Shown here: positions 47,099-56,499 of the stretch, piece by piece | Layout: each line of letters opens with the position of its first letter | Position numbering within the stretch: position 1 is the first letter of the stretch | From: an uncultured Bacteroidales bacterium | GTDB taxonomy: Bacteria; Bacteroidota; Bacteroidia; Bacteroidales; FEN-979 | DNA: 64,000 nt | Direction of reading: 5' to 3' | Assembly: GCA_903877385.1 (NCBI GenBank) | Contig: CAIRDP010000022.1 | Location: 1-64,000, forward strand | Notes under the pieces: model-generated | What the model was told of the DNA's origin: nothing | The model's input: only the letters and a program-made list of their open reading frames with translations | Databases searched by the model: none | Made by a program: the position numbers and the translations under genes

Positions 47099-48322
47099 TT
47101 AAGAAAAGCGTATGGCCTTTACCGGATTGACCTTTGTGATGATAAACGAAGGGATTATGAGCATAAGATAACAGGCCGTGACAGATATCAAATTGAGCAG
47201 GAGTATGTTGACGACATCAAGGTGGATGGGGACCACCGAAACATAATAGAATTCCTGGGGCAGTCCTATGATCCCGAACTTCTGCTGGATAAAGCAGAGG
47301 GTGAAACCCACAAGGTTGCCGATGCCGACTCCCCATCCCAGAATATACAATGCATGGTATACAAAGATCTTGCGGATCCTTCGGTTGGGAAGGCCCAGGG
47401 CTTTGAGCACCCCGATCATCGAAGTCCGTTCCAGGATGAGTATCAATAGGGTCGAAATCATGGTTATGGCCGAAACAGCGATCATCAGGGCAAGGATGAT
47501 CACCACGTTCATATCCTGGAGGGCGAGCCAGTCGAAGATCTGCGGATATAACTGGTAAATTGTTGAGGCATCAAGCTGGAACCCGATCTGGTGGTAAATA
47601 TACTTCCCCATTTTCTCAACATCCCTGAAATCCTTCAGCAGGACTTCAAACCCTCCTACCTGTGTATTGCTCCAACCGTTGATCTTCTGTATATGGATAA
47701 TGTTCCCGATCACATACAGCCTGTCAAATTCATCCAGTCCGGTTTCGAAGATCCCTGAAATCCTGAATTTCCGTCCCAGGGTATGATCGCCCACGACAAA
47801 ATACATCCTTGCAGGGTCATTGGCCTTCAGGTTCAACAGATCGGCCAGTGCTCTGGAGATGATCACGTCATTTTTCTGAGCCGAATCTGAGTAATCGGGG
47901 ATATGCCCGCCTACCATCCTTTTACGGAAGAAATCCCAATCATAATCATCTCCCACTCCTTTAAGGATAACCCCCTGGATCTGGCCTGAAGTTCGGATTA
48001 TCCCTGTTTTGCTGGCATAAACCTGGATATGGCTGATGGCGGGATGAAGGCGGAGTGCAGGAAGGAAGGTTTGCTGTTTCTCAACAGCAAAAGGCACAAG
48101 GCTGGTATTTTCGGAAAACCTGGTGATCTGGACATGCCCGGTAAAGCCTATCACCTTATCGCGGATCTCCTTCTGGAAGCCGGTAAGGATGGCGATGGAA
48201 ACGAACATTATGGTCAGGCTCAGCGAGATGGCCAGGATTGAAATCCTGATCACGGGGCGGGAGTAATAATGGCCCCTGCTCCCTTTGATCATTCGTTGGG
48301 CTATGAAGAGATCGGTATTCAA
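47099..48322 (-). CDS. FtsX-like ABC transporter permease (LolC/LolE type)
   Basis: A 407-residue permease with one N-terminal and three C-terminal membrane segments, separated by a large periplasmic MacB-PCD-like domain, the FtsX/LolCE architecture. The start MNTDLFIAQRMIKGSRGHYYSRPVIRISILAISLSLTIMFVSIAILTGF and the late ILERTSMIGVLKALGLPNRRIRKIF match lipoprotein-releasing permeases. The partner ATPase (LolD) is not in this window. A -7 box lies 20 bases upstream. Confidence 0.9.
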   Translation of the reverse strand: MNTDLFIAQRMIKGSRGHYYSRPVIRISILAISLSLTIMFVSIAILTGFQKEIRDKVIGFTGHVQITRFSENTSLVPFAVEKQQTFLPALRLHPAISHIQVYASKTGIIRTSGQIQGVILKGVGDDYDWDFFRKRMVGGHIPDYSDSAQKNDVIISRALADLLNLKANDPARMYFVVGDHTLGRKFRISGIFETGLDEFDRLYVIGNIIHIQKINGWSNTQVGGFEVLLKDFRDVEKMGKYIYHQIGFQLDASTIYQLYPQIFDWLALQDMNVVIILALMIAVSAITMISTLLILILERTSMIGVLKALGLPNRRIRKIFVYHALYILGWGVGIGNLVGFTLCFIQQKFGIIGLPQEFYYVSVVPIHLDVVNILLLNLISVTACYLMLIIPSFIITKVNPVKAIRFS

Positions 48323-48362: not shown

Positions 48363-49538
48363 ATGCCCAACAGAATGAAACTGTATCTTATCCTCATTGT
48401 ACTGCTTTCGGCGGTATATACCCAGACTTCTTTTACTCAGGTGAAGCCTGCAGCGTACCAGACGGAAAAATATTTCAGGATCCTGCACGGCAAAAAGATA
48501 GGAGTCGTAGCCAATGCCTCTTCAGTTGTAGGCGGGGTTAACCTTGTCGACACCCTCATCCATTCGGGCATTGACGTAAAGGTGGTTTTTTCGCCTGAGC
48601 ACGGGTTCAGGTTAAAAGACGAAGCCGGGCAGTCATCCGCAGACTATACAGATCCAATTAATGGGTATCGTGTAATTTCTCTTTACGGCCTTAAGAAAAA
48701 GCCTGCCGCATTGGACCTTGACGGCCTCGACATGGTGGTATTCGACATACAGGATGTGGGCGCCAGGTTTTACACTTATATAAGTACGTTGAGCCTGGTT
48801 ATGGAAGCCTGTGCCGAGAGCAATATTGCGTTGCTGGTGCTTGACAGGCCAAACCCCAATGCCTTCTATATTGACGGGCCGGTTCTTGACCTTAAATACA
48901 AATCATTTGTGGGGATGCACCCTGTACCTGTTGTTTACGGCATGACCATAGGCGAATATGCAAAAATGGTGAACGGGGAAGGCTGGCTTAAAGCTGGAGC
49001 CAGCTGCAGCCTCAGTGTTTTGCCAGTTGAAAATTACACACACGGCACGGCCTGGTTCCCCGATGCAAAACCCTCGCCCAACCTTCCGACTGCCAATTCG
49101 ATTTTACTTTACCCCTCGCTCTGCTTCTTTGAAGGCACGGTGATCAGTGTGGGCCGCGGTACTGTTACGCCCTTCGAGGTATACGGCCATCCCGGCCTGC
49201 AGGGATATTCCTACAGCTTCATGCCCGAAGCAAGTAAAGGAATGGATTCCAGGCCGATGTACAAAGATAAAATCTGTTACGGGGAGAACCTTCAGAAATA
49301 TTACACCCAGCATGCCCCCGACAAGGGGAGGATCAATCTTTCGTGGCTGATAAAGACCTTTCAGGCGCTGGGCAGCAAAACCGATTTTTTCAACCCCTAT
49401 TTTGACCAGCTTGCAGGAACATCAAGGCTGCAGGAGCAGATCGTAAAAGGGACTAAGGAAGAGGATATCAGGAATAGCTGGAAACCAGGGATAGAAGCAT
49501 TCAAAAAGATAAGGGCAAGGTACCTGCTGTACCCCTGA
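48363..49538 (+). CDS. namZ: DUF1343 exo-beta-N-acetylmuramidase (NamZ/GH171-like)
   Basis: A 391-residue secreted protein with a signal peptide (LYLILIVLLSAVYTQTSF) and the full DUF1343/NamZ core: GKKIGVVANASSVVGGVNLVDTLIHSG, VVFSPEHGFR, FDIQDVGARFYTYI, PGLQGYSY and the late Tyr-rich segment. NamZ enzymes release MurNAc from the non-reducing end of peptidoglycan fragments, working with NagZ. Here it shares the window with a NagZ-like GH3 fusion. No exact -7 box for this gene was found; TATCTTTA lies just upstream. Confidence 0.88.
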   Translation: MPNRMKLYLILIVLLSAVYTQTSFTQVKPAAYQTEKYFRILHGKKIGVVANASSVVGGVNLVDTLIHSGIDVKVVFSPEHGFRLKDEAGQSSADYTDPINGYRVISLYGLKKKPAALDLDGLDMVVFDIQDVGARFYTYISTLSLVMEACAESNIALLVLDRPNPNAFYIDGPVLDLKYKSFVGMHPVPVVYGMTIGEYAKMVNGEGWLKAGASCSLSVLPVENYTHGTAWFPDAKPSPNLPTANSILLYPSLCFFEGTVISVGRGTVTPFEVYGHPGLQGYSYSFMPEASKGMDSRPMYKDKICYGENLQKYYTQHAPDKGRINLSWLIKTFQALGSKTDFFNPYFDQLAGTSRLQEQIVKGTKEEDIRNSWKPGIEAFKKIRARYLLYP

Positions 49539-49539
49539 A

Positions 49540-50739
49540 CTATATTGTCCTCCCCGGGTAAACCTTAAGGGCTGCCTCAAGGCATTTCATGGATTCACGC
49601 AGGTCGTTCACATTCAGAACGTAACTGATGCGCACTTCATCGATACCTCTGCCTTTTGTGGAATAAAAACCTGTTGCTGGTGCAAGCATCACGGTTTTAC
49701 CTTCACAACTGAATTCCTGCAGCAGCCACTGGCAGAATTTATCGGAATTATCGATAGGAAGTTTGGCCATGGCATAGAAAGCGCCTCCGGGATTGGGGCA
49801 GAAACAGCCTTTCATTTTATTCATGGATTCCACAACCACGTTGCGGCGCAGGAGGTATTCATCGAGTACGCCCTCGATGTAGGACTGAGGCGTGTTGATG
49901 GCTTCCTCCCCGATGATCTGGCCGAAAGTGGGGGGGCTCAGCCTGGCCTGGGCAAACTTGAGGGCCGTGGACATCACCTCCTTGTTATGGGATATCATGA
50001 CGCCGATACGGGCACCGCAGGCGCTGTATCTTTTGGAGATGGAATCGAGAAGAACCACATTCTGCTCTATTCCTTTAAGGTTCATTACCGAGAAATGTTC
50101 CCGGCCGTCATAGACGAATTCACGGTACACCTCATCGGCAAACAGGTAAAGGTCATGTTTAAGAACGATCTCTTTTAGCAGTTCAAGTTCTTCCCTGGAA
50201 TACAGGTAGCCTGTAGGATTATTCGGGTTGCATACCATGATCGCCTTGGTTCTGGGTGTGATGGCCTTTTCAAAAGCCGACATGGGGGGAAGCGCAAAAC
50301 CGTTTTCGATGACTGAATCTATGGGTTTTACAGTGACCCCGGCAGCAATCGAGAAACCGTTATAATTGGCATAAAAAGGTTCGGGAATGATGATCTCGTC
50401 GCCTGGGTTCATGCAGCTGAACATTGCAAACATAATTGCTTCACTGCCTCCGGTCGTCACAATCATTTCTTCAGGACTGACGTCTATGTTGCAGGTTTTG
50501 TAATATTCGGCAAGCTTTTTACGGTAGGAAGGAATCCCGGCCGAATGGCTGTATTCTATCACCCTGATGTCGGTATGCCGGATTTTATCCATGGCATTTT
50601 CAGGAGTGGGGATATCGGGTTGCCCGATATTCAGGTGGTATACTTTGATGCCCTTTTTCTTTGCTTCATCAGAGAAAGGAACGAGTTTGCGGATTGGCGA
50701 GGGGGGACAAATCTGTCCGCGGTTTGAAATGGCAGGCAT
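49540..50739 (-). CDS. PLP-dependent aminotransferase (class I/II, AspB-like)
   Basis: A 399-residue fold-type I aminotransferase. Lys236 in LLDSISKRYSACGARIG is the PLP-binding lysine; other expected features are GGSEAIMFAMFSCMNPGDEI, NPNNPTGYLYSREEL, and FADEVYREFVYDG with the Asp/Tyr that contact PLP. AspB-type or other amino-acid transferase; the exact substrate cannot be told. It is convergent with the DUF1343 gene (1-base gap) and its start is 69 bases past the DUF1573 stop. Confidence 0.93.
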   Translation of the reverse strand: MPAISNRGQICPPSPIRKLVPFSDEAKKKGIKVYHLNIGQPDIPTPENAMDKIRHTDIRVIEYSHSAGIPSYRKKLAEYYKTCNIDVSPEEMIVTTGGSEAIMFAMFSCMNPGDEIIIPEPFYANYNGFSIAAGVTVKPIDSVIENGFALPPMSAFEKAITPRTKAIMVCNPNNPTGYLYSREELELLKEIVLKHDLYLFADEVYREFVYDGREHFSVMNLKGIEQNVVLLDSISKRYSACGARIGVMISHNKEVMSTALKFAQARLSPPTFGQIIGEEAINTPQSYIEGVLDEYLLRRNVVVESMNKMKGCFCPNPGGAFYAMAKLPIDNSDKFCQWLLQEFSCEGKTVMLAPATGFYSTKGRGIDEVRISYVLNVNDLRESMKCLEAALKVYPGRTI

Positions 50740-50765
50740 AACTCAGGTTTTGGATAAAGCAGCAA

Positions 50766-50784
50766 AGCCAGCTTTTGGCTGGCT
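50766..50784. terminator. Hairpin between the DUF1573 and aminotransferase genes
   Basis: AGCCAGC (50766-50772) pairs with GCTGGCT (50778-50784) around a TTTTG loop, with imperfect extension to AGCAA and TTGCT outside. There is no T-run, so it is a weak terminator candidate for the DUF1573 gene. Confidence 0.35.
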
Positions 50785-50808
50785 GTGTTGCTAAAATTAA
50801 TTTATTAT

Positions 50809-51273
50809 CTACTTGTTAACGGGGGTTGCTCCCTGTTCATTCGGTTTTTCGGGTGTTGTAGTAGCCGGCTTGGCGACCACGGTTCCTTTAATGGAAAGCC
50901 TTACCATGGATGTTTTGCCATTGGAATTAACCGTGATGGTCTTGTTGATAGGGCCGATATTGTTTGTATTGTAAGTCACCTTGATCACATCACTTTTGCC
51001 GGGGAGTATCGGTTCCTGTGGCCAGGAAGAGGTAGTGCATCCGCATGATGTAATAGGTTTAGAAAGAATAAGAGGTTCTTTACCGGTGTTTGAGAATTTG
51101 AATTCGCAAGCGCCGTCGGCTCCCTGGAAGATTGTACCGTAATCGTGCACCAGGTTGTCAAAAGAGATTTCAGGTGCATTCGGATTTACCGGTGGCTGTG
51201 GTGTTGCATCCTGGGCTTTAACTGCAAAAGCAGCAAAAACTACGAACAGGACTGAAAGCAAAATTTTCTGCAT
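50809..51273 (-). CDS. DUF1573 secreted protein
   Basis: A 154-residue protein with signal peptide (LLSVLFVVFAAFAVKAQ) and a single DUF1573 domain (FDNLVHDYGTIFQGADGACEFKFSNTGKEPLILSKPITSCGCTTSSWP, VTYNTNNIGPINKTITVNSNG), an ASPM/SPD-2/Hydin-like Ig fold typical of Bacteroidota. The CGCT pair may bind a metal or form a disulphide. Function unknown. It starts 36 bases after a -7 box. Confidence 0.9.
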   Translation of the reverse strand: MQKILLSVLFVVFAAFAVKAQDATPQPPVNPNAPEISFDNLVHDYGTIFQGADGACEFKFSNTGKEPLILSKPITSCGCTTSSWPQEPILPGKSDVIKVTYNTNNIGPINKTITVNSNGKTSMVRLSIKGTVVAKPATTTPEKPNEQGATPVNK

Positions 51274-51308
51274 ATTATTCTGGTTTGTAGGGTTTGTTAA
51301 ATGGGATA

Positions 51309-51316
51309 CAAAAATA
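51309..51316 (-). promoter_or_regulatory. -7 box TATTTTTG for the DUF1573 gene
   Basis: An exact TAnnTTTG match on the minus strand, 36 bases before ATG 51273. Confidence 0.45.
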
Positions 51317-51404
51317 CATAAAAAATTTCTTTATGGGGAAGAGAAATGTTAATATTTTATAAAGACAGCAAATTGAAGGGGTATTGAATGGCAGGTTGAA
51401 ACGC

Positions 51405-53492
51405 TTACTTTATACTGTCAAGTATCTCAATAAGTTCCTCGAGCTTGAACGGTTTGGAAATGTAACTGTCGACTCCCGACTGGTAGCATTTTTCCTCATC
51501 ATCCTTATCGGCATTGGCAGTGATGGCGCAAATATGAATCGCTTTCTCCATAGGCCCTGACTGTTCGATATGCCTGATTTCCCTTGTGGCTTCAAGTCCA
51601 TCCATCTCGGGCATGAAGATATCCATAAGGATGAGATCGTACTTGTTCTTTTTATACATAGCCACTGCAATATTCCCGTTTTCGGCTATATCGATCTGAT
51701 GGCCCAGTTTGCTCAGGGTAACCTGGGCCACTTTCTGGTTGATGAGGTTGTCTTCGGCAAGCAAAATCCTGAGCTGCCTGGCTTCATGCCCGGCCGGTGG
51801 CCGGAATGCAGCTTTCACAGCAGTAACGGGTGTTTTATGTGTAATGGTATTGAGTATGGCCGATGAAAATTCAGCGGGAAGGAACGGGCGTTTCATAACC
51901 GTATGGAATCCCATTTCGCTGACTTTTTTCGGAATCCCGGTTCCGGGATAATAAAGCAGGATCTTATTAAGCTCCTCCCAGGCTTGACCCGGTTTGAAGG
52001 AGCCCATTGCCATCATGGCCGCTTCCAATTCAACAATCAGCAGGTCGACAGGCCTCCTGATCTTATGGCGGTGAGCCAATTCCTGGAGCCCTTCGGTAAG
52101 ATTGGAAAAAATCACCGTGTCACAATCCATCCTGCCCAGGTAATCAATAATGATGCCCGACCTTGAAGGGTGGGAATCAATTACCATGACTTTAAGTCCC
52201 TTTATCCCGGGTTCGCAAAAAGGCGGTTCCGATCCGGGGACCTTCTCAAGCAATACATTGAATACAAACGAGGAGCCTTTTCCAGTCTGGCTTTCAACAT
52301 GAACTTCCCCTTTCATTTTTATAATCAGGTAGCGGGCTATAGCCAGGCCAAGACCGCTGCCGCCGTATTTGCCGGTCGAGGGGCCTATCCTGGTAAATGA
52401 GGTGAATATCTTTTTCAGGGCTTCCACAGAAATACCTATTCCCGTATCGGTAACCTTAAACTGCAGGTTCACAGTATCCTCGTCCCAGGAAAGGAAATTT
52501 GCCGAGATGCTGATCTCGCCATTCTCGGTGAATTTAACTCCGTTGTCGGCAAAAACCCTTAGTACCTGTTTCAGGCGTATGGCATCCCCCTTTACCAGCA
52601 TGGGAATGTTCGGGTCGACAAACGAAAGAACTTCCAGCTCCTTGCCGGCTGCTTCGGGTATAAGGGATGAAACCAGGTCCTCCATCAGTTCATAAACGCT
52701 GAAAGCACTGTTTGTCAGCTCTATCTGGTCAGCCTCGATTTTAAGAAAATCCATGATGGTATTGAACACCGAAAGGAGGTTGGTAGCTGAATCCACAATA
52801 ATTTCAAGGTATTCCTTCTGTTCCGGTGAGAGCTCAGATTGCTTCAGTATCTCGGCCATGCCTACAACACCCGAAAGGGGCGTATATATTTCGTGGGCCA
52901 TATTAGCCAGGAACGAACTTTTTGCCTTATTCGCCCCATCGGCTTTTTCAAATTCGGCAAGCAGCCTGTTTTCATGTGTTTTCTTTCTTTCAACATCCAT
53001 GACCACGCCTAGCAGCCTCAGCGGCTTGCCAATTATATCCCTTTCCACGATTTTACCCTTGTCGAAAACCCATTTCCAGTCACCGCGGGCAGTTTTCAGC
53101 CTGTATTCCGATTCAAAAAAAGGAGTGATCCCGTTGATGTGCTTTTCAAGGTTTTCCCTGGCTTCCCTAACATCATCAGGGTGAATAAGCTCAAGAAAAG
53201 CAGAGAAGGTAACAGGAAAAGCCTCTTTGCCAAACCCCAGCAAATGAGCCATGTTCTCTCCGCACTCCAGCTTACCGCTCTTGAAATCCCAATCCCAGTA
53301 TGCCAGCTGGCTGGCTTCAAAAGCCATGGTCAGCTTTTCGTTCACCTGGTTGAGTTCACTGTATACCTGCTGCAGGCGGTCATTTGATTTCTGATAGGTC
53401 CGCTGGATCTCCTCCCACTGCATAGAAGCAAGCCTCACTACTTTGAGTTCCGCTTCAAGTTCCTTTATTTTCTTTCTCAGATCTTCTGACAT
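51405..53492 (-). CDS. Hybrid histidine kinase (PAS-HisKA-HATPase-REC-REC)
   Basis: A 695-residue soluble hybrid kinase. N-terminal coiled coil (~1-50), PAS sensor (~55-170, with WDWDFKSGKLECGENMAHLLGF and a PAC tail), HisKA with His200 in HEIYTPLSGVV (a Tyr replaces the usual Arg), HATPase (N-box and GSGLGLAIARYLI), a degenerate receiver (KVMVIDSHPSRSG; no clear phosphoacceptor Asp) and a good receiver with Asp624 (LILMDIFMPEMDG) and Lys680. No membrane segment, so it senses something in the cytoplasm. It lies 25 bases downstream of the di-iron MBL gene, suggesting that the latter is its input. Confidence 0.93.
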   Translation of the reverse strand: MSEDLRKKIKELEAELKVVRLASMQWEEIQRTYQKSNDRLQQVYSELNQVNEKLTMAFEASQLAYWDWDFKSGKLECGENMAHLLGFGKEAFPVTFSAFLELIHPDDVREARENLEKHINGITPFFESEYRLKTARGDWKWVFDKGKIVERDIIGKPLRLLGVVMDVERKKTHENRLLAEFEKADGANKAKSSFLANMAHEIYTPLSGVVGMAEILKQSELSPEQKEYLEIIVDSATNLLSVFNTIMDFLKIEADQIELTNSAFSVYELMEDLVSSLIPEAAGKELEVLSFVDPNIPMLVKGDAIRLKQVLRVFADNGVKFTENGEISISANFLSWDEDTVNLQFKVTDTGIGISVEALKKIFTSFTRIGPSTGKYGGSGLGLAIARYLIIKMKGEVHVESQTGKGSSFVFNVLLEKVPGSEPPFCEPGIKGLKVMVIDSHPSRSGIIIDYLGRMDCDTVIFSNLTEGLQELAHRHKIRRPVDLLIVELEAAMMAMGSFKPGQAWEELNKILLYYPGTGIPKKVSEMGFHTVMKRPFLPAEFSSAILNTITHKTPVTAVKAAFRPPAGHEARQLRILLAEDNLINQKVAQVTLSKLGHQIDIAENGNIAVAMYKKNKYDLILMDIFMPEMDGLEATREIRHIEQSGPMEKAIHICAITANADKDDEEKCYQSGVDSYISKPFKLEELIEILDSIK

Positions 53493-53517
53493 GGTGCAAG
53501 GCTTTAAACAGGTTTAA

Positions 53518-54315
53518 TTATTTTCTTTTTTTATCAGGATAAAGGATATCCAACCCGCAACGCAGGTTGTAAAGATAACGGAATGCATCTTCCACGAAGG
53601 GTTCAGGGATCACCGAACCATGCTGGGGAAGAATGGCTTTCACCTTTATGCCTTTCAAACGATCAATAAAACCCCGGGCAGCAACATTCCCTGCCATATA
53701 ATCAAGATGGAAGAGGTTCATTTTAAATTCATGACTACGGAAGTCGCTGATAACCAGCTTCCAGTCCATATCTATGGCAGCCCAGATATCTCCCGATAAA
53801 AGGTAGGCTGAAGTTTCGTCGTAAGTGGCAAAAGCTCCCGGGAAATGAAGGAAAGGGGCTTCGATAAACCTTAAGCTCCGTCCCGAAGAGAAAGTGTAAG
53901 TTGCAAATTCGGTTATGTTAAAGAATTCATAATCATCTTTCCCGTAATGAGAGATCAGAATGTTGGTGCGTGTGCTTGTGATAACTTTCATTTCGGGATT
54001 GACATCCAGCCACCTCACCATGGACCCTGCCACATCAGGATCCTGGTGGCAGAGGATCTGGGCCGAAACATGCGCAGGTTCAATGATCTGCTCAACACGG
54101 CGCCTGATAAAGTCGAACACTTCGGCCCCGCCAGGATCCACGATAATGGCTTCATCCCCATCGGTTATCAGGTAGGTGTTACAGCGGAATGCCGAGTTTT
54201 CGGGTGTTCCCAGCCAGTAAACTGCATGGTATTCATTCTGGTACAAAGGGGTTGGCTGCTCGAAACTCTCCTCAAAAAGTTCGCTTATTGTAGCAAGGTT
54301 CACAGTATTGCTCAT
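53518..54315 (-). CDS. MBL-fold oxygen-binding di-iron protein (ODP-like)
   Basis: A 265-residue metallo-beta-lactamase-fold protein of the flavodiiron/ODP branch. Expected ligands: His90 and Asp94 in CHQDPDVAGS (H-x-D/E-x-D region), Asp in LLSGDIWAAID and His in LPQHGS. There is no flavodoxin domain, as in the oxygen-binding di-iron proteins known from chemotaxis systems. It would bind O2 or a reactive species rather than act as a full reductase (inference). It sits between cysH (6 bases) and a hybrid kinase gene (25 bases), all in one direction. Confidence 0.85.
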   Translation of the reverse strand: MSNTVNLATISELFEESFEQPTPLYQNEYHAVYWLGTPENSAFRCNTYLITDGDEAIIVDPGGAEVFDFIRRRVEQIIEPAHVSAQILCHQDPDVAGSMVRWLDVNPEMKVITSTRTNILISHYGKDDYEFFNITEFATYTFSSGRSLRFIEAPFLHFPGAFATYDETSAYLLSGDIWAAIDMDWKLVISDFRSHEFKMNLFHLDYMAGNVAARGFIDRLKGIKVKAILPQHGSVIPEPFVEDAFRYLYNLRCGLDILYPDKKRK

Positions 54316-54321
54316 AAAAAA

Positions 54322-55029
54322 TTATTTTTCATTGTTATGAAGACCGCATTCTTTACCCGATTCACTTTCCCACCACCAGCGGCCGGCCCTGAAATCCTCA
54401 CCCGGCATGACCGCCCGTGTGCAAGGCAGGCAGCCTATACTAGGGAAACCCTTGTCGTGAAGGCTGTTATAAGGAATTTTATTCCCCCTTATGTACTTCC
54501 ACACCTCATCCCCGGTCCAGTTTATCAAAGGATTCAGCTTCAATATGCCCTGGGTTTCATCCCAATTCACCATTTCAAGCCCTGCCCTTCCCACGGACTG
54601 TTCCCTTCTCAAGCCGGTGATCCAGACTTTCATGCCCTTAAGCATCCGCTCCAGGGGTTCGATCTTGCGCACATGGCAGCATTCCTTACGATTTTCCACA
54701 CTGTCGTAAAAAAGGTTGACCCCTTTGGAATTAACCATTTTTTCAACCTGAAAATGCTCAGGGAAAGCTATGCCGATCTTAACATTGTATTTTTGTTCTG
54801 TAATGCTGATGAGTTCGTAAGTTTCCTGGAACAGCCTGCCCGTATCAAGGGTAAATATCCTGATCCCCGGAACTTCCTTGGCGATAATGCGGGTAAGCAC
54901 CTGGTCCTCTGCACCCAGGCTGGTCGAAAAAATGCATTGTGAGGGGAACAGTGTATTAAAATACCTGATGGCTTTTGCCGGATCGGCTGTTAATAAGTTC
55001 TTATTGTATTGATCTGCAATATTTTTCAT
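54322..55029 (-). CDS. cysH: Adenylyl-sulfate (APS) reductase, [4Fe-4S] type
   Basis: A 235-residue CysH. The cysteines for a [4Fe-4S] cluster are present, Cys117-Cys118 (KECCHVRK) and Cys200/Cys203 (GCLPCTRA), marking the APS-reducing class rather than cluster-free PAPS reductase. Catalytic Cys228 is in ECGLH near the C-terminus. It reduces APS to sulfite for assimilatory sulfur use; thioredoxin is the usual donor. No other sulfate-assimilation gene (cysDN) is adjacent. It leads a three-gene operon with the di-iron MBL and hybrid kinase. Confidence 0.95.
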   Translation of the reverse strand: MKNIADQYNKNLLTADPAKAIRYFNTLFPSQCIFSTSLGAEDQVLTRIIAKEVPGIRIFTLDTGRLFQETYELISITEQKYNVKIGIAFPEHFQVEKMVNSKGVNLFYDSVENRKECCHVRKIEPLERMLKGMKVWITGLRREQSVGRAGLEMVNWDETQGILKLNPLINWTGDEVWKYIRGNKIPYNSLHDKGFPSIGCLPCTRAVMPGEDFRAGRWWWESESGKECGLHNNEK

Positions 55030-55115
55030 TATTTTCTTACAAAATATGAATTTCAGAATGTGAAATTATGAAAATCCGCCTCCGAAAACAACAGTTTTAC
55101 AATAATAATAAACTG

Positions 55116-55123
55116 TATTTTTG
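55116..55123 (+). promoter_or_regulatory. -7 box TATTTTTG for mpl
   Basis: An exact TAnnTTTG match, 15 bases before ATG 55138. Confidence 0.5.
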
Positions 55124-55137
55124 AGAAAAATTGATGC

Positions 55138-56499
55138 ATGAGGGTTCATTTCATAGCGATTGGCGGAAGCGCAATGCATAATCTTGCATTAGCTCTTCAT
55201 TATAAAGGGTATACCATAAGCGGCTCCGATGACGAGATCTTTGAGCCATCGAGGAGCCGGCTCCTTAAACAGGGCCTGCTTCCTGCCGCAGAGGGCTGGG
55301 ATGTTTCACGCATAGTCCCCGGGATTGACGCTGTCATTCTGGGAATGCATGCCAAAGCCGACAATCCCGAACTTTTAAAGGCAAAGGAACTTGGATTGAA
55401 GATTTTTTCCTACCCCGAATATCTTTACGAGCAGTCGAAGGATAAAAAGAGGGTGGTTATCGGGGGCAGCCACGGGAAGACCACCATAACCGCAATGATA
55501 TTGCATGTTTTGAAAACAGCCGGCCTTGACTGCGACTATATGGTTGGCGCCCAGCTGGAGGGTTTTGATGTGATGGTCAGGCTTAGCGAAAAAGCAGGGA
55601 TCATGATATTCGAAGGGGATGAATACCTCACCTCATCCATAGATCCCAGGCCCAAATTCCATCTTTACAAGCCCGATATAGCCCTGCTGAGCGGGGTAGC
55701 CTGGGACCACATCAATGTATTCCCTACTTTTGAAAATTACGTTGAGCAGTTCAGGGAATTCATCAGGCTGATCACGCCTGGCGGGACACTGATATATTGT
55801 GCCGATGATGAAACCTTATGTCGCATAGGCTCCGGGTCCCGGGCCGACATCAGGCTGATTCCTTATTCTGTTCCTGAATATTTCATTTCTGATGGGGTAA
55901 GTTCTCTGATAGACCGGGGCCTTGCTTATCCCCTGGAGATTTTCGGACGCCACAACCTGATGAACCTGAACGGGGCAAGATGGATATGCCGGGAATTGGG
56001 GATTACCGATGAACTTTTCATTGCTTCAATACAGTCCTTCAAAGGAGCTTCAAAACGTCTCGAGCTGGTCGCCGGGAATGCGGGGACCAAAGTATACAAG
56101 GATTTTGCCCATGCCCCATCGAAGGTCATGGCAACGCTCAATGCCGTAAAGGAACAATTTCCTTCCAGAACCATTGTTGCCTGCCTCGAGCTTCACACAT
56201 ACAGCAGCCTGAGCAAAGACTTTCTCTCACATTATCTTCACAGTCTCGACGGGGCCAGCGTACCCATGGTTTATTTCAACCCGCATGCAATTCAGCTGAA
56301 ACGCCTTCCACCAATTACAAAAGAACAGGTAAAAGAAGGTTTCGGGAACCCAAACCTGGAAATTTTCACAGATTCCAAAGAACTGCAGTCTGCCCTTCTT
56401 TGCATGGAATGGGAAAACTCGGTACTGCTGCTTATGAGCAGCGGCAATTACGATGGAATGGATATAGCGCGTTTAGCAGCACAGATCGTGGAAAAATAG
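55138..56499 (+). CDS. mpl: UDP-MurNAc:tripeptide ligase (murein peptide ligase)
   Basis: A 453-residue Mur-ligase-fold enzyme that attaches recycled L-Ala-D-Glu-meso-DAP peptide to UDP-MurNAc. Opening MRVHFIAIGGSAMHNLALALHYKGY, P-loop GGSHGKTTITAMILHVL, a middle DEYLTSSIDPRPKF, ALLSGVAWDHINVFPTFENYVEQF, and C-domain DFAHAPSKVMATL (Mpl-type DFAHHP-like loop). ATG 55138 fits the conserved beginning. This, with dapF, NagZ-like GH3, NamZ-like DUF1343 and mltG, shows cell-wall recycling. Confidence 0.95.
   Translation: MRVHFIAIGGSAMHNLALALHYKGYTISGSDDEIFEPSRSRLLKQGLLPAAEGWDVSRIVPGIDAVILGMHAKADNPELLKAKELGLKIFSYPEYLYEQSKDKKRVVIGGSHGKTTITAMILHVLKTAGLDCDYMVGAQLEGFDVMVRLSEKAGIMIFEGDEYLTSSIDPRPKFHLYKPDIALLSGVAWDHINVFPTFENYVEQFREFIRLITPGGTLIYCADDETLCRIGSGSRADIRLIPYSVPEYFISDGVSSLIDRGLAYPLEIFGRHNLMNLNGARWICRELGITDELFIASIQSFKGASKRLELVAGNAGTKVYKDFAHAPSKVMATLNAVKEQFPSRTIVACLELHTYSSLSKDFLSHYLHSLDGASVPMVYFNPHAIQLKRLPPITKEQVKEGFGNPNLEIFTDSKELQSALLCMEWENSVLLLMSSGNYDGMDIARLAAQIVEK

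Follow-up and report, generated by a model that had tools for sequence, protein, structure and literature searches.

ODPs are known from chemotaxis, where passages of one paper (PMC7666581) describe the Treponema denticola ODP as genetically coupled to TDE2496, an MCP homologue without membrane and sensing modules, and report that ODP loss alters CheA ordering. A second arrangement is that of H-NOX and NosP, separate gas-sensor proteins that passages of PMC8738867 present as heme proteins, described as NO sensors and often encoded near the kinase that they bind and regulate. Our literature search found no paper that links an ODP to any histidine kinase apart from the CheA of chemotaxis, and the original ODP description may list such neighbours; PMC9665402 contains both ODP and histidine-kinase terms, in unrelated passages. 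Here we describe a locus from an uncultured Bacteroidales bacterium in which an ODP is encoded beside a soluble hybrid histidine kinase. In the stretch of DNA analysed (64,000 nucleotides, hereafter the window), an earlier note had picked out three tightly packed same-strand genes, and their open reading frames were confirmed: the order of transcription is cysH, ODP, kinase, with gaps of 6 bp and then 25 bp (open reading frame list), and the three are probably co-transcribed. The domain scan at the locus covered seven proteins (48363-56499), and Rfam and ARAGORN returned no match in the window. The features are:

54322-55029, minus strand: cysH, APS-reductase type (TIGR02055), first in the same-strand run and judged a neighbour outside the sensory unit
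53518-54315, minus strand: ODP-family metallo-beta-lactamase-fold protein, 265 aa (PF19583, PDB matches, structure model, site residues)
51405-53492, minus strand: soluble hybrid histidine kinase, 695 aa (Pfam, alignment, AlphaFold2 model)
53319-53492, minus strand, inside the kinase gene: N-terminal 58-residue helix of the kinase (profile search), a candidate ODP docking or dimer helix
55138-56499, plus strand: Mur-ligase-family gene, divergent from cysH and part of an older block (PF08245, PF01225, PF02875; synteny)
47099-48322, minus strand: FtsX-like permease gene, 61% identical to the FtsX gene of another locus (L123), in which PF02687 is found

The product of 53518-54315 matches PF19583 with an E value of 3.1e-59 and 200.5 bits (gathering score 27.2), and only ODP and Lactamase_B domains were reported in it, which bears out the earlier description of an ODP-like metallo-beta-lactamase protein without a flavodoxin domain. 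PF19583 alone is not decisive for an ODP, because the flavodiiron-like protein of the same genome also passes the threshold at 83 bits; this other match is a 408-aa open frame at contig C51, 25% identical to the window ODP, that by its length and match we take for a flavodiiron protein. A sequence search of the PDB matched the window protein to the ODP 6qrq (E 4.3e-38), and its structure model (pLDDT 89.4) retrieved ODP entries at ranks 1-10, with TM scores of up to 0.84 of the query, flavodiiron proteins beginning at rank 11. Class A flavodiiron proteins (FprA, ROO) share the diiron metallo-beta-lactamase fold (TM 0.75 of the query to 1e5d), but the flavodoxin domain of flavodiiron proteins is missing here. 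From sequence and modelled structure together we are confident that the window protein is an ODP. It shares with the T. denticola (TDE2498) and Thermotoga maritima ODPs both the PF19583-type stand-alone metallo-beta-lactamase fold and all seven site residues, among them the Gln that precedes the final His.

All seven of the metal-site residues expected are present (H90, D92, D94, H157, D176, Q231 and H232), and the pattern H-x-D-x-D, H, D, Q-H matches that of solved ODPs in an alignment to the 6qrq and 6qnm sequences; we take these positions to be ligands. The complete site occurs in 48 of 50 ODPs aligned, and the two ligand-poor proteins, those of G018 (H157P) and G430 (H90G, H157P, Q231H), both keep the kinase. 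At this site the window ODP would bind two metal ions, most likely iron. The layout of sensor gene beside kinase gene resembles that of H-NOX and NosP in layout only: the window protein is a metallo-beta-lactamase-fold diiron candidate with a different fold, and Pfam and structure matches revealed the ODP fold and no H-NOX or FIST domain in it. Elsewhere in the window genome (L164), a FIST protein is encoded beside a hybrid kinase, a NosP-like layout.

Both the T. denticola ODP and the window ODP are encoded with a soluble signalling protein; in T. denticola an MCP homologue fills that role, here a PAS-containing hybrid histidine kinase, and no MCP was found among the seven proteins scanned. 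The soluble PAS-containing hybrid kinase of the earlier note was recovered by Pfam (PAS_3, HisKA, HATPase_c and Response_reg), and no membrane segment is expected because the highest 19-residue Kyte-Doolittle mean is 1.31. From its N-terminus, the protein comprises the helix, PAS, HisKA with an HEIYTP box, HATPase, a degenerate receiver and a receiver (AlphaFold2 model, pTM 0.50). Pfam and alignment place the conserved boxes and the phospho-Asp in the HisKA, HATPase_c and receiver domains, with Tyr or Phe replacing Arg in the H-box in 10/10 family alignment rows and the rest of the box kept. The degenerate first receiver (residues ~425-545), a feature absent from the earlier note, is drawn from a weak sub-threshold receiver match plus alignment; in the alignment its phospho-acceptor position is E or D, and R replaces the expected Lys.

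The trio of cysH, ODP and kinase recurs across one Bacteroidales family, in which 28 of 43 genomes contain the ODP and 25 of 43 a kinase with the N-terminal helix, in each of the 25 beside the ODP. A profile search found no such kinase in any of the 14 checkable ODP-less family genomes, and in all 14 cysH meets ftsX directly. In the wide-flank loci of other genera, the ODP-kinase pair sits between cysH and ftsX in 4/4 genomes; across the other family genera, the FtsX gene lies directly behind the pair, or behind cysH where the pair is absent. ODP and kinase are thus a cassette between cysH and ftsX of an older mur-cysH-ftsX block. G035 was kept outside the ODP-less set; its contig C81 ends inside a kinase beside ftsX (L200). 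A test aware of relatedness used a block tree of 40 of the 43 family genomes (all but G004, G029 and G035); its starred branches gave only 4 independent pairs, with 3.9 in the same direction and 0 opposite (sign test p 0.125). We do not rely on a Fisher test (p 5.4e-9), which counts G035 as negative and ignores relatedness. In a kinase tree built from the catalytic core, the ODP kinases group together with weak support (78/62); the two kinases of locus L119, described below, were omitted for a mismatch to the H-box pattern.

The pairing also occurs in a second family, f100, where in genomes G380 and G1193 a full-length kinase begins 4 bp behind the ODP with no cysH adjoining. When the G380 kinase was compared with the window genome, the window kinase was the best of 131 matches (E 3.1e-111, residues 4-687). 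A profile of the N-terminal helix matched in 26 of 394 genomes, every match beside an ODP, and a version built without f100 still detected the f100 kinases (E 4e-12 and 7e-11). In a further count, an ODP was present in all 114 matching loci. Aligned between the first family and f100, helix residues 1-45 share 13-21 of 45 positions and the PAS domain only 15-21 of 97, with residues 46-60 at 0-2 of 15. We had considered the PAS domain as the main route by which the ODP acts on the kinase, and demoted it because it has diverged between the families while the helix has been kept. The helix is a possible docking element for the ODP or, alternatively, a dimer helix. Other ODPs lie near two-component genes of different form: in L119, of the same phylum, a receiver-ODP fusion is flanked by two PAS-HATPase kinases, and in L122, of family f212, the ODP is followed by a REC-HisKA-HATPase protein.

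The reading we favour, and regard as reasonably probable, is that the ODP senses O2/Fe as a stand-alone diiron protein and regulates the hybrid kinase, probably through the N-terminal helix, in the manner of H-NOX and NosP. That it signals to the adjacent kinase, as the earlier note had suggested, is most likely, given the cassette-like presence and absence, the second pairing in f100 and the common helix. ODP and kinase would form a two-gene sensory cassette in which the ODP, with two metals that are most likely iron, switches state with O2 (peroxo-diiron form) and/or iron availability and so controls autophosphorylation of the soluble kinase; contact would probably be made at the N-terminal 45-58-residue helix and not at PAS. 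The C-terminal receiver (D624) would next take over the phosphoryl group and hand it to an HPt or response regulator, proposed to be unlinked because the scan of seven proteins at the locus reported no HPt. Several observations count against this reading: the two ligand-poor ODPs that keep the kinase, ODPs retained where the kinase is missing (below), the scarcity of recognised kinase neighbours in f212, the small number of independent pairs in the relatedness test and the weak grouping of the ODP-kinase catalytic cores.

The same architecture could carry a signal other than O2, with redox state, NO or the availability of Fe(II) as what the ODP reports. Sequence does not reveal the ligand, and the T. 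denticola ODP is called a sensor of both Fe[II] and oxygen in the title of its paper; on the other side, the window ODP shares its site residues with ODPs for which a peroxo-diiron form has been solved (6r9n, by its entry title), and we consider such a signal unlikely. It is somewhat less likely again that the ODP is an enzyme (a reductase of O2, NO or peroxide, or a hydrolase) that is merely co-transcribed with a kinase sensing through its own PAS domain. Flavodiiron proteins, the fold relatives of ODPs, are O2/NO reductases, and the PAS domain could sense by itself. Moreover, three genomes (G034, G428 and G429), which group as a single clade in the ODP tree (99/98), keep an ODP with intact ligands and no kinase, so this protein may serve some purpose apart from the kinase, and in f212 an adjacent kinase was recognised only at L122, most ODPs there having no recognised kinase neighbour. 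Against an enzyme stand the missing flavodoxin domain, the lack of a rubredoxin among the seven proteins scanned, the finding that the helix-bearing kinase was never seen away from an ODP (G035 aside, at its contig end) and the retention of the helix between two families in which PAS is poorly conserved.

The cysH product is a thioredoxin-dependent APS reductase (TIGR02055, E 2.9e-79), a normal member of the assimilatory CysH group, with the full cysteine set noted earlier: Cys117, 118, 200, 203 and 228 are all there, and among 40 rows of relatives they are kept in 40, 40, 39, 39 and 39 respectively; the one exception at Cys200, at Cys203 and at Cys228 is in each case a gap. Its adjacency to the ODP extends beyond the window genome: it was seen in 27 of the 28 family genomes that carry an ODP, the contig of the 28th ending inside the ODP. 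In the window cysH lies directly upstream on the same strand, 6 bp away, and in relatives the end of one hit and the start of the next differ by 9-33. The same adjacency is nevertheless expected from one old insertion, or from an ancestral position with later losses. Since cysH keeps its position and its cluster cysteines in 14/14 checkable genomes without the cassette, and the f100 pairs have no cysH alongside, we placed it outside the sensory unit and rejected a single functional trio; a cassette dedicated to coordinating sulfur assimilation, the coupling proposed earlier, or to shielding the O2-labile APS-reductase cluster is therefore very unlikely. In the mechanism favoured here, cysH would have no part beyond preceding the cassette, with which it is probably co-transcribed.

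An ODP-like sensor and a soluble kinase travelling as a cassette suggest that such sensors can feed ordinary two-component signalling and not swimming control alone. The N-terminal helix offers a concrete docking element open to experiment, and nature supplies variant sets, with ligand loss in G018 and G430 and partner loss in G034, G428 and G429. More broadly, though we advance this tentatively, phosphorelays may quite generally use ODPs as plug-in diiron O2/Fe sensors, sometimes fused to a receiver (as in L119), with the helix marking the hybrid kinases that read them and the metallo-beta-lactamase fold serving as a sensory domain outside chemotaxis. A conserved cassette of ODP and hybrid kinase would mean that diiron oxygen/iron sensing also serves to control phosphorelays in the Bacteroidota.

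Listing the ORFs confirmed that the three genes proposed in the earlier note lie at their reported positions; all three are on the minus strand, cysH first, then ODP and then the kinase, with intergenic gaps of 6 bp between cysH and ODP and 25 bp between ODP and the kinase gene. The features, with the window's FtsX gene, are:

54322-55029, minus strand, cysH product (Pfam PAPS_reduct; NCBIfam TIGR02055)
53518-54315, minus strand, MBL protein (Pfam ODP and Lactamase_B)
51405-53492, minus strand, kinase (Pfam PAS_3, HisKA, HATPase_c and Response_reg)
47099-48322, FtsX gene

NCBIfam assigns the cysH product to the thioredoxin-dependent APS reductase subfamily TIGR02055. With a maximum 19-residue hydropathy mean of 1.31, the kinase is expected to lack membrane segments, and none of the seven proteins scanned around the window locus was reported to carry an HPt domain.

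The top two matches to the MBL protein in a phmmer search of PDB sequences were the ODPs 6qrq (E 4.3e-38) and 6qnm (E 1.9e-32), above flavodiiron proteins. When its structural model (pLDDT 89.4, pTM 0.89, 25 aligned sequences) was compared with the PDB, ranks 1-10 were all ODP chains, and flavodiiron proteins appeared from rank 11. The ODP chains include 6qwo (TM 0.84 of the query) and 6r9n, whose title names a peroxy diiron species. Residues H90, D92, D94, H157, D176, Q231 and H232, the presumed metal ligands, align with solved ODPs. Q231 is consistent with PMC7785958, in which T. maritima ODP has a motif-5 Gln in place of the third motif-2 His. Of 50 ODPs gathered across the phylum, 48 have the complete set of seven, the exceptions being G018 (H157P) and G430 (H90G, H157P, Q231H). 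At the loci of these two genomes (L023 and L068, respectively), metal-site residues are lost, H157P in both, and the kinase gene is retained.

ODPs as close as the window's are rare in the order (3/393 genomes, E<=1e-30), class (1/395) and phylum (5/395, E<=1e-25) samples, the window genome being counted in each. ODP is present in 28 of 43 genomes of the window's family, and in two other families, f100 (3/11 genomes) and f212 (17/54). A public genome scan returned 10 ODP loci, every title a MAG, naming Bacteroidales (5), Bacteroidetes (3), Draconibacterium orientale (1) and Alphaproteobacteria (1). The locus titled Alphaproteobacteria (L040, SACF01000008.1) shares the Bacteroidales block, its ODP hardly differs from the one at L038, and its title looks wrong.

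The ODP-kinase cassette is real and conserved. A profile of the kinase's 58 N-terminal residues matched 26 of 394 relatives (E<=0.001), namely 25 family genomes and G380 of f100, all at the ODP-adjacent position. Because some rows of this profile derived from the matched loci, we rebuilt it without f100 and ran it on a redundant set of 844 ORFs, each 150 aa or longer, from the collected loci; 114 ORFs in 114 loci matched, and ODP was present in every such locus. The f100-free profile detected the f100 kinases of G380 (4.3e-12) and G1193 (6.8e-11). The non-matching control was small (18 of 131 ORFs with a histidine-kinase H-box), and included repeats and the f100 REC-kinase upstream of ODP. G380 and G1193 both encode a REC-kinase upstream of ODP and, after a 4-bp gap downstream of it, a hybrid kinase, with no cysH alongside; in G1196, the third f100 genome with ODP, the contig stops behind ODP. 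Searched against the window genome, the f100 kinase gave 131 matches, the window kinase being best (E 3.1e-111, span 4-687). In a catalytic-core tree, ODP kinases cluster weakly (78/62).

Between the window family and f100, kinase residues 1-45 are identical at 13-21 of 45 positions, residues 46-60 at 0-2 of 15, PAS at 15-21 of 97, HisKA at 37-43 of 65 and the C-terminal receiver at 59-68 of 118-119. AlphaFold2 predicts a single helix at residues 3-60, with low confidence at 41-60 and a whole-model pTM of 0.50, and we regard this N-terminal helix as a candidate coiled coil or docking site for ODP. In the family, the first receiver has degenerated (acceptor E or D; R for K), whereas that of f100 is canonical; the last receiver retains D624 and K680. 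The H-box reads HEIYTP, HEIFTP or HDIYTP in family rows and HEIRTP in f100. Tyr or Phe replaces the H-box Arg in the family rows of the ODP kinase (51405-53492 in the window); this Arg is kept in all seven window-genome paralogues inspected (HEIRTP in five, HELRTP and HEFRTP in one each).

Other ODPs are also linked to two-component proteins. L119:7254-9014 (G816) encodes a 586-aa fusion of a receiver domain to an ODP domain, flanked on one side by a PAS-HATPase protein and on the other by a hybrid kinase with five PAS domains, and at L122 (G934) a REC-HisKA-HATPase gene lies 52 bp behind ODP. At the f212 loci other than L122, no directly adjacent kinase was recognised, mostly by blastp against a small reference set and in several cases within 1.5-kb flanks. 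Pairing of ODP with a kinase is thus recurrent, yet not universal. In f212, a 244-263-aa protein usually precedes ODP, as it does in 11 of 15 further loci; these proteins are mutually related by blastp, and three scanned cases gave no Pfam match. ODP adjoins this protein at L120, L121, L122 and L130-L140.

Within the window's family, cysH is best read as a neighbour of the cassette and not as a member. It was detected in 41 of 43 genomes and lies immediately upstream of ODP in 27 of the 28 with ODP; in the 28th, G004, the contig stops within ODP. The earlier note's proposed coupling to sulfur assimilation is unsupported: of 15 family genomes without an ODP match, 14 keep mur-cysH followed immediately by the FtsX-like gene, and the CysH cluster cysteines are identical with and without ODP (40 rows, 26 with ODP). 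In 13 of these 14, namZ lies past the FtsX-like gene, and in the other, G026, the contig stops; the contig of the fifteenth, G035, stops inside a kinase adjoining ftsX. The cysH match of G427 is divided over two frames. In four ODP-kinase genomes of other genera obtained with wide flanks (G022, G011, G033 and G430), the cassette lies between cysH and ftsX; in the window's genus, the kinase is followed by DUF1573, aminotransferase and namZ.

Against the pairing, three family genomes carry a ligand-intact ODP followed directly by ftsX, with the kinase absent, and form a single clade in the ODP tree. On a block tree of 40 genomes, ODP requires 7 changes and the kinase 9; among the only 4 independent pairs on starred branches, the two changed the same way 3.9 times on average and opposite ways 0 times (p 0.125).

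The papers found contained no experiment on these ODP or kinase proteins. PMC7666581 describes T. denticola ODP as a sensor of oxygen with genetic coupling to a receptor homologue that has neither sensing nor membrane modules, and reports that deletion of ODP alters CheA ordering. The window ODP has a hybrid kinase as its partner. In layout, H-NOX and NosP (PMC8738867) are analogues of ODP-kinase. Elsewhere in the window genome (L164:186-3093, contig C38), the gene for a FIST-domain protein extends into the 5' end of one for a PAS hybrid kinase, and the pair resembles the NosP-kinase layout. ODP is a known kind of sensor, and its cassette with a hybrid kinase is a new variant.
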